Shown: positions 18,848 through 25,900 of the stretch, one piece after another | Layout: the number at the start of each line of letters is the position of its first letter | How positions within the stretch are numbered: the stretch's first letter is position 1 | Assembly (NCBI GenBank): GCA_022496185.1 | Contig: WTXG01000008.1 | Coordinates: 558,001 to 622,000, forward strand | Origin: Multifurca ochricompacta | Taxonomy: Eukaryota > Basidiomycota > Agaricomycetes > Russulales > Russulaceae | Reading direction: 5' to 3' | Length of the DNA: 64,000 nucleotides | Made by a program: the position numbers and the translations under genes | The notes under the pieces: model-generated | The model's database searches: none | What the model was told of the DNA's origin: nothing | Seen by the model: only the letters and a program-made list of their open reading frames with translations

Positions 18848-21800
18848 ATGGCTGCAACCGTCCGACAGCCAAAGCCGACCAAGAAGGGCTTTCCTGGCGA
18901 TAATCCTTCTACCCGGTTTGTCTCTCCTTCCGCCTGTCTTTTACTCTTCCATTAAGTTAGCACCGTTCTATCTAGCCGCCAGTCCGCCTGGGGCGGCACG
19001 CGTTCTTCTCCGTCTTTCTCTCCAAGTCCTAATAATGCTCGTCTGCCAAACGGTCCTCCCCCCGCCACCGCCGGTCAGGCTGCGTCTTTCCCGCCTCTCG
19101 GTCCTTCAACACCCACTCCTCGCCAGGATCACAAAGCAATCCTTCAGAATCTTGCGAGCCTCACAGTGCGTATCAACTATTTCAATTCTTACCATTTATT
19201 ACATGCTAATGTTTCTTACCTAAAAGGGGACGACCGTCACCCTCCTTACCAAGACCGCTAAGCGCTACGAGGGTGTTATCGCCTCTACCACCGAAAGCGA
19301 GGGTGACACCACTGGTGTAACCCTTCGCGACGTGAGGGAGCTCTCCGCCCCTGGTGCTCCCGTTAAGGGCCAGTTCTTCATTGCGTCTACCAACATCGAC
19401 TCTTGGTCCCCTGCTTCTGCCAGTTCTGGGAGTTCAGGACAGGCCCCTCCGGCCGCGAGCTCGCGTGTAGATGCCAAGGAAAGAGCTTTGCTTCAGACTC
19501 TTGCTGGCCTTACTGTGGGTGATACATATAGAGTTTCCTAGTTTTCAAACTAGCGCTGATCTGATTAGGGTACGACTATCACCCTCACCACCAAGGCCGT
19601 AAAACGCTACGAAGGCGTCATAGCCTCCACTGCAGGAGAAAGAAATGCAGTTGGCCTTACACTCCGCGACGTCAAGGAGCTTTCTGCTCCTGGTGCGCCG
19701 CTTAAGGACCAGCTCTTTATCCCTGCAGCTGATATTGAAACCTGGTCGTCTGGTCCTGCGGACGCCAAGGTCCCGAATGGTGATTGTACGTCGTGCGACT
19801 GGTATTTCACACCCCTTTTATTAGCTAAGCACGTTTTCGTAGCGTTCAAGACTGACACAGACATCAGCCAAAAAGCTCCCCAGCGCCGTGAGCGCGAGCT
19901 TCAGACTTGGCAAGCTGACGTGCCACCACCCACGAACCCCCCCTCCGGGCCCGCCCATGGGCAACACAGTGACGATGTCACATTCGGTGCCGGCTCTTCG
20001 GGGCATGCGGGGTGGAATCAATTCACCGCCAACGAGAAGCTGTTTGGTGTCAAGACCGGTTTTGACGAGGAATTGTATACAACTAAGTTAGACAGATCTG
20101 GCGCCGATTTCGCTGAGCGGGAAAAGAAGGCACAAGCGCTGGCGAATGAAATCATGAGAGTACGTCCAAGCATCTGCCTGCCCTCCAAAGCGTTTATCGA
20201 AGGCCCCAGGGTGCGACCAACAACTCGCATATTCTGGAAGAGCGCATAATGAACAACGTTGATGATAGCGGGGTTAATGAGGAGGACAAGTATATCCCAA
20301 TCATTGCATACGTCCGGCATTCATTTACCCATGGGTATTCAGATATGGTGCGGTCGTTCGCGGCTCAAATGCTTACATTCCCCCGGGAGCGCGAAAAAAT
20401 CTGCCTCCTCCGACTGCGGCTTCTGCCGCTGGCGTGCCTGTTGCAGCATCTCCTGCATCTACTGGCGCCAATGCCAAGGGGCCTGATGTTCCCAAGGTGT
20501 CCATTAACGCTCCGGACGGTTCCACAGTCCCCCATTCCGACACCACCACGCCAGCCTCATCGTCTAAAGCGCCTTCCCCAGTGCCTTCTTCCTCTTCCCA
20601 AAAGGTATTTCTCCTATTTATTTCACCCACAGTACTAATTTCCTGGTGTGTCCGTGTCTAGCCGCCAGCAGACGCATTACCTGCGTTCCGTGAATTCGTG
20701 GTACATGAGAAACAACGGTTGACTCAGAAGCGTCAGGCGCTGGTCAAGAGCGAAAGGGATAAACGCATGGCTGAGCTGCTCAAGTTCAGTCAGAATTTCA
20801 AGGTGACTGTCCCCTGCTAGTTCTGTTCCGCTTTTGTTTACTCATTTACTCAAACCTGTCCACCGCTAGTTGAACAAGCCCATACCAGATGACCTTGTGA
20901 AGATTCTCGCTAAGGATGAGGAAAAACAACGTGCCATCGTTGAAAAATCTTCTCGAGACGCCACATCTACACAAGCGCGCGCTATTGGGGCCACTGCAGC
21001 GCTTAGCGCCACACCCACAGCAAACCCACCTATGCCCGCGACCGCGAATAGAGTTGCGACGTCCACTTCTGGTAATGTCTCGGGCACTAGTTCTATGTCT
21101 TCAAAGCTCGTTAGTAGTCCTTCTGTCGTCGCTGCCAAGGCATCCAATGCCGCGCCCTCAAAGAGTGGAAGATCAACATGGTCATTCAGCCTATTCCACC
21201 CTTCAAGGGCAGGAAGTCTCAGTCAGCAGCGCAACCATCCAATACTACAACACATGCGAAAGCTTCCGGGTCAGGCCCAAGTGCACAATCTAACAAGGGT
21301 ACAGAGGCTACAAAGGCGGCGGATGTGGCTGCGAACAAGTAAATGTCAATGCGACATCCTTCAGGCCAAATCCGAAAGCTCTGGCGTTTACCCCTGTAAT
21401 CTGACCCCTACTTCATTCGTAGACTGGCTGACGATGATGATTGTCTTTTCAGGCTTCGCCAAATACAACTGTTGGTGCATCGGCGAACTCTTCACCCAAG
21501 GCCAAGCCTGAAAGCGTATGTAGAAATTATATGTTAAACACGCATGTCAATGATCTCACACAAACTGCCATGCAGTCCTCGACTTCGCCACCTACCCCTA
21601 ATCCCTTCTTTGGCAAAGTCGTGCTTAAAAAGACGCCTGTCCATGTCAAGGATGATTTTAACCCATTCAAATTTAATAAGGTTGCTGAGGCCAGCGCCGT
21701 CAGTACGTATCACCCAGCCCTATCTCTCAGTCTCTGGTGACTAAATATGGCTTTGGCTAGATGCTATTTGGCCATACCAGGGCAAACGTTACATGCAGAT

Positions 21801-22567
21801 GTTCCCACCGGTCCAGCCGCCGCCGCCGCAACAGTCGCCACACATGGTCCCTCCTGGGCCACCCCCAATTCCGCCGCCCCCGTACGAAGAAGATCAATCG
21901 ATTCCCCGCGGATATGTGTATGCCTACCCCCCCTATGCATATCCCGGACAGGTTAGTCACGTCACTCTTGTTGGTCCTGACAAATATCTAAGTGTGATCT
22001 GCTCGGCAGCCTATGATGCCTGGTATGGCCCCACCACCCCCTGGCGCTTACATTCCCGGACCCTTCATGCAACACATGCCCTATCCTCCGAGCATACCTC
22101 CGCCGAGCGGTGAGCACTGATCCGATTTAACGTTTATGTCAACTGAACTTAGTATTCAACAGCTATGTACGCATCACCACAGATGGGCCAGCTGCCACGT
22201 ATGTTACCTAATTTATCTGTCGAATTCTTAGACGTTCAACGCATTTCAGCACCCCAAGCATACATGCAAGCTCCGCCTCCAGGGCAGTATCCCCCTCCAC
22301 CAAACGGTGCGGGCCCTCGTCCCTCCATGCCCCCGACGCCAATTCCCGCGCACGCACATCCATACTACCACCAAAGCCCGCAACGTATGGCATCCATTTT
22401 ATTTTTCTCGTTGTTGACAAGGGCCCCTTATTCTGAACCTTGTAGTTCCTCAAGCTGTCCCGTATCAAATGATGATCCCCCCGCCTGGCGCACCTGGTGG
22501 CCCACCGCATGGTTACGATGGTGGCCCTGCACCGCCTGTGCCCATGGGCGGTGTTGGTCACGTGTGA
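18848..22567 (+). CDS. PBP1: Ataxin-2 / Pbp1 homologue with tandem Sm-like domains
   Basis: Poly(A)-binding-protein-associated regulator of mRNA stability and stress granules. The ATG at 18848 opens MAATVRQPKPTKKGFPGDNP. Two ataxin-2 Sm-like domains follow in tandem (19139-19412 and 19488-19751). Next is the LsmAD region: SFKTDTDISQ, then FGVKTGFDEELYTTKLDRSG, ERIMNN, and KYGAVVRGSNAYIPPGARKN. A charged helix (KQRLTQKRQALVKSERDKRM) precedes the conserved KWKINMVIQPIPPFKG. A PAM2-like motif SFRPNPKALAFTP (21357-21395) is then followed by a Pro/Met/Tyr-rich low-complexity tail ending VPMGGVGHV. At least eight introns. Two one-base frame breaks (near 21164 and 21339) lie inside otherwise conserved coding sequence. 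The duplicated Sm domain is unusual: one copy is the family norm. Confidence 0.9.
19139..19412 (+). repeat. Sm-like domain of Pbp1, copy 1
   Basis: Encodes ILQNLASLT/GTTVTLLTKTAKRYEG, then GVTLRDVRELSAPGAPVKG and FFIASTNIDSWSP. A 61-nt phase-0 intron (19166-19226) splits it between Thr and Gly of LT/GTT. Copy 2 has an intron at the same codon and phase. Confidence 0.9.
19488..19751 (+). repeat. Sm-like domain of Pbp1, copy 2
   Basis: Encodes LLQTLAGLT/GTTITLTTKAVKRYEG, then GLTLRDVKELSAPGAPLKD and LFIPAADIETWSS. More than 40 of about 70 aligned residues match copy 1 by eye. Its intron (19515-19568, 54 nt) sits at the same codon and phase as in copy 1, as expected if a genomic segment including the intron was duplicated. 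Confidence 0.9.
21357..21395 (+). other. PAM2-like motif (Pab1 binding) in Pbp1
   Basis: SFRPNPKALAFTP matches the N-P-x-A-x-x-F-x-P core of PAM2 peptides that bind the MLLE domain of poly(A)-binding protein. The usual leucine before Asn is Pro here, so binding may be weaker. Confidence 0.55.
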
Positions 22568-22903: not shown

Positions 22904-25900
22904 TCACTCGCCACGAATGACGGATAGTTCGACCTTCTTCAATAGCCCCTTCAATGTGTTACTACTCCTGTTGCAATTTGCTTGCAACCACGCTTCCATC
23001 TCAGCCCGCAGCAATATGAGAATCTCTGATACGGGTAACGCGCTGTTGGGATGGACAAGACTCGGGTTGAGTAGGACGTCAAACAAGCGGGTCCACAGGT
23101 CAGTCTGCCAATATCGCTTGAACGGCGTCGTGAGCTTGTACCTTGGTTCGTTGTGCTGCTGCTCGCCGATCTGCTGCGGTTTGACGCGCACAATTGAGGA
23201 TGCCTCAATGTACTTGCCGTAAAGCATGCAGTACACAATCCCAGCGAGGCCAAAGTAGTCCGCTTGATACGTCCATGGTTGACCCTCGCGCATCTCGACG
23301 CAGTCGCGCGCATCAGTTGCCCATTCGGCAATGAAAGTCTGCCCGCGTGGGAACATAGGCGTATCGATGGCGCGTCCAAAGTCTATCAACTTGATGCCCT
23401 TGTTGCGCCACCCACCTGCGCCTGCGGGGTCATATTGCGCCGCCCAGGCGGACGCACCACCGGGCACGTCCTCGAGACGCACGAGGCAGTTGTCGATTTT
23501 GAGGTCCCCGTGGATGATCCCTTTACTGTGCAAGCCCTCGAGCAGGCGTAGGAGCTCAACTGTGAAGAATGTCACGAGTAGCTCGTCCAGGCATGCACCT
23601 GGCTGCGATACCCCAGCTGGTCCCGCACCATTGATGATGTCGAGAAGTGAGCCCTGCGTGCAGAGGTCAAGGACAAGGAAACTTTCGTCACGGAAGGTGT
23701 ACAAGGCTTGCGGGTGGATGACTGACGATCGAAGACGCGCAGGTAGGCTAGCGTGGACCTTGCGCAGCATACGGAATTCCCATTCGTTTTGCGGTTTGAC
23801 AACCTTAATCGCAACTCGGCGCGATTCCTCATTCTCGTCGTCGTCTTCTCTTCATCATCATCATCTTCATCCTCACTTTGGCCCAACAACTTTGCCTGCA
23901 AATACAGCCCCGAAGCCCCCCTCACCAAGCTTCTCGTACACATCGAAATGCATGTCACCGAGCTGCAGGGGAAATATTTGTCCGTGGTTTAGTGAGCGGC
24001 TAGACATTCCGTGGCCTTCATCTGTTTGCGACCGAATTTCTGCAAGTCGTCCAGGAGCTGAGCATCTCGAGGTGTATGATAATGTTCGGGATCCGCTGGA
24101 AGGAGAGAGAGCAGCGTCGAAATAATTTGATGATCAAATGGATTGCATGGATTTGGCGGGTTAAAGGTAGACGCGACAAACTTATCGTCAGACAAGTTAA
24201 GCGTGCCGGTCTTCTCCTCCACTAATGTCGTAACGGCCTGCAACTCGAGATCTTTCTTTTCCTTGTTGAGACTCGGGATTGTGTGCCCGTCTGACAGACG
24301 GAACGGCGGTGGCCTGGAAGACATGGACTCTTCGGATGAAACTGAAGACGTTTCGTCGTCCCCAGAATGTAGGATGGGACGAGAGTTGACCACCTGCTGC
24401 TCGCTCATGAAGACGTTATCTCGTCGGACTTCAGCCGCTAATTTCTCAGCAGCCTCAACAGCGTCAGGCTGCCCGAATGGCCTTTCCCCCAAGGCTGAGA
24501 TGTCGCTGTCTGTAACAGAGAAACGGCCGGTAGAAGTGTATTCCAGTGTTCGTTCGGCTATGGGTGTCATGACATTGAATTGGCCAAATCGTCCGCCAAA
24601 TGGGGCATTTTGAGCTGATTCAAAATCTTCGAGGTCTTCTTCGTAATCCATAGTGGGGTTGGGTTGTGCGTCTCGGCCATCGTGGTCTTCCTCATCCTCA
24701 TCGTCAGACAGTACTTCCAGTGCTTCTTCTTCTGTTCGCTGAGGCACGAATACCCCGAGCGGCGGGCGACTACACAATGCAGGACGAGGGGGGGCGGTAG
24801 ACGGGTCATCAACGAAGGGAGGGGGGAAGCTACCAGGCTTCGAAAACACCGATTTTTTTTCTGGTGGACGGCTAAAAACCTTGAAAGGAGGCTGAACGTC
24901 TCCAAGAAGTGTGAGTTTTTGAGAGTTCAGCTGGGGGGGGCCATTCTCGCCTACCGCCTGGAAGACTTGCCCTTCCGATTGAGGTGATTGACCGGTTGAT
25001 TGCCTGATCTCCTCTTTTGTGACCGGTGTGAAAACTTTAGAAAAGACATTCAGCGCAGCACCCCCACTGCCCTTCGGCGGAGGTACGGATGTGGCAGCCC
25101 CGATATCCTTGGAGGCCAGGGCTCGCCGCCCAGGTGCGGGCGCAGGTGCGGATGTTGGCGTTCGCGCTTGAAGAGTAGCATCGACAAAAGGTTTGAACTT
25201 CATTTAGCATGATCAATTTGGGTCGGTGAATAGAAAAAATAAAAAAGGATACTTTTGGCGGAGCAGCGTTCTCTTTGCGACGACCAGCATTCTCATCTAC
25301 GAAAGGGGTGAAACCTAGAAAAAAAAATAGTATAAGTGGGGTGGAAATGATATTGAACTCAGGCCGTACTTGGGATTACCGCCGCGGAACTATTGGGTTT
25401 CTCAACCGAAGCCGGCCGGGTTTGGAGGAGCAGACTGAGAGGTGTCACAGGTTCGACAGCGCGTACTGGAGCATGCTTAGTCCCAGGCATAGTAGAAAAG
25501 CGTGTAGATTTCTCAGGTGAGTTGTACATGCCAAAGACGTCTGCAAGGGCTGCTTTCGTATTAATGGTGACAGTCGGCTCTCCCCCAGCAAGGCTCCTCC
25601 GAGCAGTGTAGCTACGAGTGTTCCTACTCCCATCATCGTTAAAGTTGACTCTGGTTGTTGAGGGATTCTCGCGAGGGAGCTCAGAAGCGGGTGGCTGGCC
25701 CCACTTCTTGCCTAGGAGGCCCATAGAACGCGCGCGAGCTTCGGGCATACTGTACTCCCCTCCCTCTTCTGTAAACAGTAAATTAAGATGAAGTCGCAGC
25801 TTTTCAGGACGTTTTCCTGCTAGGGGAGGGGCGAGCATGTGAAAGTAGCGATTATGAGAATAAGATGCTGAAGATAAGGACGGTGGCGAGGGGTCCTGGG

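Follow-up and report, generated by a model that had tools for sequence, protein, structure and literature searches.

Two tandem Sm-like domains in the ataxin-2/Pbp1 proteins of the mushroom family Russulaceae

Ataxin-2, an RNA-regulating protein, has attracted study both because it can drive or restrain the formation of stress granules and because it is linked to disease. This report concerns its homologue Pbp1 in Multifurca ochricompacta, whose gene lies within a 64,000-nucleotide stretch of contig WTXG01000008.1 (hereafter the window) at positions 18848 to about 22567 of the plus strand, and which carries two tandem Sm-like domains (19139-19751) followed by one LsmAD domain. That arrangement had been proposed from the letters of the window alone, and it is borne out by a splice model, by Pfam and by P0001, the annotated M. 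ochricompacta protein, which the Pbp1 of the window, used as query, matches at 99% along 92% of its length. What is new here is a two-Sm architecture for a well-known protein family, found across the Russulaceae and so reaching beyond one gene; it is not a new kind of system. The gene as given by the splice model, with further evidence named where it applies, reads as follows.

18848..18915, plus strand: exon 1 (MAATVRQPKP...); start and join match P0001
18976..19165, plus strand: exon 2, with the N-terminal helix of Sm copy 1 (AILQNLASLT) at its 3' end
19166..19226, plus strand: intron 2, phase 0, at LT/GTT in Sm copy 1; position common to one-Sm homologues (also P0001, fragments)
19227..19514, plus strand: exon 3, 288 nucleotides, symmetric (phase 0-0), with the Sm copy 1 body (five strands), a disordered linker and the Sm copy 2 helix (ALLQTLAGLT)
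19515..19568, plus strand: intron 3, phase 0, at LT/GTT in Sm copy 2; in-frame stops inside
19569..19785, plus strand: exon 4, 217 nucleotides, with the Sm copy 2 body (five strands) and the start of the link to LsmAD
19843..20159, plus strand: exon 5, with the link and the first half of LsmAD (also Pfam LsmAD)
20210..20289, plus strand: exon 6, the later part of LsmAD, its end reaching into exon 7 (also Pfam)
20343..22567, plus strand: remaining exons, with disordered regions, a helical segment, a putative PAM2-like motif and a proline-rich tail; splicing only partly worked out, and the frame apparently broken twice in the exon from 20870

P0001 agrees with the window gene in its two Sm copies and in both splice joints. 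The introns at 19166-19226 and 19515-19568 cut both copies in phase 0 at the same codon, as the original prediction held, and the second of them must be non-coding, because read-through would meet its in-frame stops and end the protein. The duplicated unit is slightly bigger than first noted, in that it takes in the N-terminal helix upstream of the intron.

Pfam SM-ATX matches P0001 at 36.3 bits against a cut-off of 29.8, over two stretches, and LsmAD matches at 93.2 bits over residues 328-399, after the Sm domains, and is also matched in exon 5 of the window. Because the single Sm exons fall below the SM-ATX cut-off (16.8 and 15.4 bits) and Pfam also misses the outgroup protein P0014 (13.7 bits), Sm copies were counted throughout with our own hidden Markov model (HMM), whose training set was the 114 one-Sm sequences that a motif selected from 152. 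In a search of the whole genome (53.8 Mb, 605 contigs), the Sm exon occurs in only these two places and LsmAD in one. AlphaFold gives a complete Sm fold, a helix plus five strands, in both copies; a sequence profile of the whole protein retrieved no relative of solved structure at E up to 1. The protein thus has both the SM-ATX and the LsmAD domains of the ataxin-2/Pbp1 family and departs from it in the single Sm per chain, a feature that is usual but not defining. Pbp1/ataxin-2 of other Agaricomycetes, yeast and animals is alike in Sm, LsmAD, long disordered tail and, putatively, a PAM2-like motif, and LsmAD once in the genome and the intron at LT/GTT are likewise common to the Russulaceae gene; however, the protein elsewhere has one Sm, whereas that of the Russulaceae has two.

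When aligned, the two Sm bodies share the same residue at 42 of 67 positions (E = 8e-27 in a single comparison). In DNA, 144 of 210 aligned bases are alike and 66 different, with 0.204 nonsynonymous (dN) and 1.89 synonymous (dS) substitutions per site, the latter near saturation; from this divergence, the copies must be old and are no echo of assembly. An artefact of assembly or gene modelling in the Multifurca genome was nonetheless weighed, since the two apparent frame breaks further down the gene mean that the assembly may hold small errors. With so many base differences, and with the same layout present in other genomes, in fragments and in transcript-like sequences, the chance of such an artefact is negligible and that candidate was rejected; the diverged, non-artefactual nature of the copies claimed at the outset stands. 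Recent gene conversion between the copies is likewise unsupported, synonymous sites being near saturation. Introns 2 and 3 may still be recognizable as copies of each other, their alignment score having been reached in 6 of 1000 shuffles, although splice-site letters common to both contribute to it. Read-through of the LT/GTT intron is also seen in six fragments with one Sm match (P0191, P0208, P0210, P0216, P0217 and P0218), and the intron therefore most likely predates the duplication and was copied with its segment, in agreement with the earlier proposal. Sequence comparison thus supports tandem duplication of a segment made up of helix, LT/GTT intron and Sm body.

To gauge the spread of the architecture, homologues were drawn from the best 120 of 303 and the best 120 of 172 matches, together 165 distinct proteins, and from 69 of 69 fragments. 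By the HMM, two Sm domains are present in nine of these 165 long homologues and one in 156, the nine being P0001 to P0008 and P0010 among the matches listed. The six that carry a species name come from Multifurca, Lactifluus, Lactarius (two) and Russula (two), all Russulaceae; the first two were placed in the family by NCBI taxonomy, and Russula and Lactarius are further genera of it. A single Sm is found in six recognized Russulales proteins of other families, from Artomyces, Auriscalpium, Amylostereum, Dentipellis (two) and Stereum, the placement of which was checked for all but Auriscalpium, likewise a genus of the Russulales outside the Russulaceae. Among the fragments, 17 of the 69 run from copy 1 to a second helix and then into intron read-through, which is most simply explained if they are genomic DNA with the same two-Sm layout; in two of the 17, P0166 and P0168, the frame stays open into Sm body 2. 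A further fragment, P0167, is of the spliced form. From their sequence, these fragments were taken as Russulaceae. The original prediction had allowed that the arrangement might be standard in all related fungi: it is usual in the Russulaceae and was not found outside them among the proteins surveyed. In the literature listings searched, no report of a natural two-Lsm ataxin-2 or of Russulaceae Pbp1 was found. In PMC12898128 and PMC4105795 the phrase ‘two Lsm’ has 0 occurrences, and the survey in PMC4105795, of 216 sequences including 15 fungal species, describes Lsm plus LsmAD and one gene per fungus.

Whether both copies reach the same chain is a matter of splicing, and four sequences bear on it. 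P0003 (948 amino acids on a 3,569-base contig) and P0007 (945 on 3,312) cover the whole protein; P0010 (850 amino acids on a 2,961-base contig) begins inside copy 1; and P0167 (339 amino acids on a 3,143-base contig), in which the joint of copy 1 and copy 2 is spliced, has one later intron unspliced. Relative to P0002 of Lactifluus, the first three contain no insertion of at least five residues. Because their frames stay open across many short introns, we infer that all four derive from spliced RNA, and all four of the four spliced sequences covering the joint hold both copies across intron 3. Mutually exclusive use of the two copies was therefore rejected, the more so as copy 1 alone could not be made by plain skipping, since omission of exon 4 shifts the frame. 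The presence of the two Sm domains together in one RNA is thus strongly supported. A partial parallel exists in the COE/EBF transcription factor, where an always-included duplicated exon likewise supplies a second copy of a motif (PMC2394523), although that is an unrelated vertebrate protein and the motif is a helix-loop-helix, unlike the Sm case.

Exon 3 could, in principle, be a cassette, its inclusion giving a two-Lsm Pbp1 and its skipping a one-Lsm form that joins the helix of exon 2 to the body of exon 4, so that Lsm dosage would be set by splicing. Its 288 nucleotides begin and end in phase 0, so skipping would keep the frame, and two Lactarius models with one Sm, P0009 and P0012 (L. psammicola and L. 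akahatsu), read as exon 2 joined to exon 4, while a third, P0013 (L. deliciosus), retains of exon 3 only its tail, TLAGLT, which suggests that at least this part is still in that genome. Yet the presence of both copies in every spliced sequence over the joint speaks against a cassette, as does a tree of 29 rows built from the FKTD stretch onward, with the Sm region omitted (row P0167 being just 27% filled), in which the one-Sm models sit among two-Sm proteins inside the Russulaceae clade, and L. akahatsu and L. deliciosus form with the two-Sm L. hatsudake a trio (support 100/99) on very short branches. The models of L. psammicola and of R. earlei (P0011) are unusual in other ways too, for instance in lacking a strand or carrying additional residues; from the latter a portion of the Sm body is absent. 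Gene finders guided by homology tend to omit an additional exon. The one-Sm Russulaceae models are thus probably annotations that follow one-Sm relatives, which is simpler than the possible alternative of repeated recent loss, and a cassette exon 3 is improbable. The fuller form of the idea, in which Russulaceae would switch ataxin-2 between one and two Lsm through exon 3 and so tune the condensation of messenger ribonucleoprotein (mRNP), with the copies specialized for different contacts, is more doubtful again; if true, it would mean that mRNP condensation is set by splicing.

Preferred instead is a two-Sm protein arising from one old event. A tree of the Sm region was built from 60 hand-chosen rows and 67 columns, comprising 12 two-Sm proteins (24 rows), the four one-Sm Russulaceae models, 24 outgroup rows and eight fragments. 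All 20 copy 1 rows fall into one group (Shimodaira-Hasegawa-like approximate likelihood ratio test, SH-aLRT, 99) and all 12 copy 2 rows into a second (SH-aLRT 99), joined by the four one-Sm models. Rows thus group by copy and not by species, which points to one duplication before the radiation of the family. The residue before RYEG is Q in 81% of one-Sm proteins, K in 10 of 10 covering rows of copy 1, and K in 11 of 12 and R in one of 12 rows of copy 2; K in both copies fits a change on the stem that preceded the duplication. Taken together, the sequences strongly support a single tandem duplication before Russula, Lactarius, Lactifluus and Multifurca split. As a separate observation, fragment P0186 has an extra residue in copy 1 and keeps Q before RYEG, unlike the remaining copy 1 rows; it is possibly from an early-branching lineage of Russulaceae.

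Within the family, mean identity is 82.8% for copy 1 and 80.0% for copy 2, versus 57.5% for the linker, and dN/dS between the copies is about 0.1, with dS near saturation; on these sequence measures, it is strongly supported that both Sm domains have been kept under constraint. The two have not changed equally. Among the 48 columns in which 75% or more of the 114 one-Sm sequences agree, copy 2 has changed at six, of which two lie in L3 (G to R, D to N), one in strand 3 (V to L), one at the end of strand 4 (A to P) and two in L5 (S to A, N to D), whereas copy 1 has changed at two, in L4 and at the start of strand 4, one column being changed in both copies; copy 1 also has an additional L3 residue in nine of 12 rows. 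All 12 copy 1 rows and none of the 12 copy 2 rows have EGD in L3 and STNI in L5; among the 114 one-Sm sequences, 103 have the former and 82 the latter. L3 and L5 are the RNA-touching loops in Sm and LSm rings, and the copy 2 changes are enriched there (four of eight columns versus two of 40; Fisher p 0.005, in a post hoc test for which the 48 columns were entered from the conservation table after inspection). Such loss of conserved loop residues might be expected of a neutral passenger, that is, of a duplication that drifted to fixation in the Russulaceae ancestor, with a second Sm that adds little and copies kept only as each still folds. Several of the new copy 2 residues are, however, themselves fixed (R, L and D each in 12 of 12), and this, with identity of roughly 80% in both copies against that of the linker and with the low dN/dS, makes neutral drift an unlikely account.

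It has been reported that the LSm of ataxin-2 binds U-rich RNA and that LSmAD alone does not (PMC11898529), and that in flies Lsm restrains granules driven by the disordered tail, its removal giving larger granules and an engineered second Lsm smaller ones (PMC7946432). The engineered Drosophila Atx2 resembles the Russulaceae protein in having two Lsm in one ataxin-2 chain; the former, however, is a laboratory construct in which the second Lsm takes the place of the middle disordered region, whereas in Russulaceae the two are natural, adjacent and diverged (PMC7946432). The earlier suggestion that two modules could change valency gains outside support from that construct. Under the preferred reading, the two copies would share out the old job: copy 1, with ancestral L3 and L5, would be the likelier binder of RNA or a partner, and copy 2, with its ancestral helix, its position adjoining LsmAD and its changed L3 and L5, would probably be a structural or partner module. 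The doubled Lsm would strengthen the Lsm brake on tail-driven condensation, with smaller mRNP granules and a less condensing Pbp1 than the one-Lsm form as the outcome, so that Russulaceae Pbp1 may be a natural lower-condensation form. The opposite has also to be weighed, i.e., that a second Sm raises valency and promotes granule formation, as multivalent LSm contacts build droplets in Edc3-Dcp2, to which dimeric Edc3 brings a pair of LSm domains (PMC4320757). That case involves another protein and other partner motifs, and the direct test in ataxin-2 gave the opposite result (PMC7946432), so a granule-promoting second Sm appears unlikely.

Taken as a whole, that is, the layout, the single old duplication, the joint presence in RNA, the constraint, and the brake and sharing-out of roles, the preferred reading is given a rough probability of 0.7; its last part, the granule effect and the sharing of roles between copies, is tentative and somewhat short of an even chance. 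Several points weigh against it. Four of the 10 named Russulaceae annotations show one Sm. The RNA origin of the four spliced sequences is deduced from missing introns and not from record type, two of them start within copy 1, and one, P0167, retains an intron. In the 60-row tree, one outgroup sequence, P0112, is placed among the copy 1 rows; with 67 columns, the inner branching order is poorly resolved, just two of 57 inner branches carrying a star; and the tree does not show the two copy groups to be sisters. The sharing-out is read from residues, and the granule effect from fly analogy and not from these fungi, the fly data being from S2 cells, with the additional Lsm put in place of a disordered region and not next to the original one (PMC7946432). 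Finally, in the system of Dcp2 and the Edc3 dimer, condensation benefits from the two LSm domains that each particle has (PMC4320757). The fly case for Lsm opposing condensation consists of deletions and one artificial two-Lsm construct (PMC7946432), and a mushroom family in which a two-Lsm form was apparently fixed long ago allows that claim to be tested in nature, relatives with one Lsm serving as controls; the change of L3 and L5 in one copy but not the other likewise offers a ready way to separate RNA contact from the scaffold roles of the Sm domain.

Some details of the gene and its surroundings complete the picture. P0001 uses a different acceptor at window 19786-19842, and the extra residues that result are absent from the seven other Russulaceae proteins compared, a probable annotation fault. 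In the exon from 20870, the frame shifts twice relative to P0002, at about 21170 and about 21340, through either small assembly errors or real breaks; the annotated Multifurca model skirts both places and so loses the core of the PAM2-like motif. The PAM2-like stretch VNVNATSFRPNP, so called by comparison with the PAM2 consensus, aligns with LNVNATPYRPNP of P0002 and lies downstream of an apparent frame break. Beyond the gene, a long open reading frame at 23992-25203 on the minus strand had no match in a Pfam search at 0.1. The convergent neighbour at 22904-23851, also on the minus strand, matches the kinase domain of Pfam Pkinase at 54.7 bits and, by eye, appears to resemble the Bub1 checkpoint kinase.
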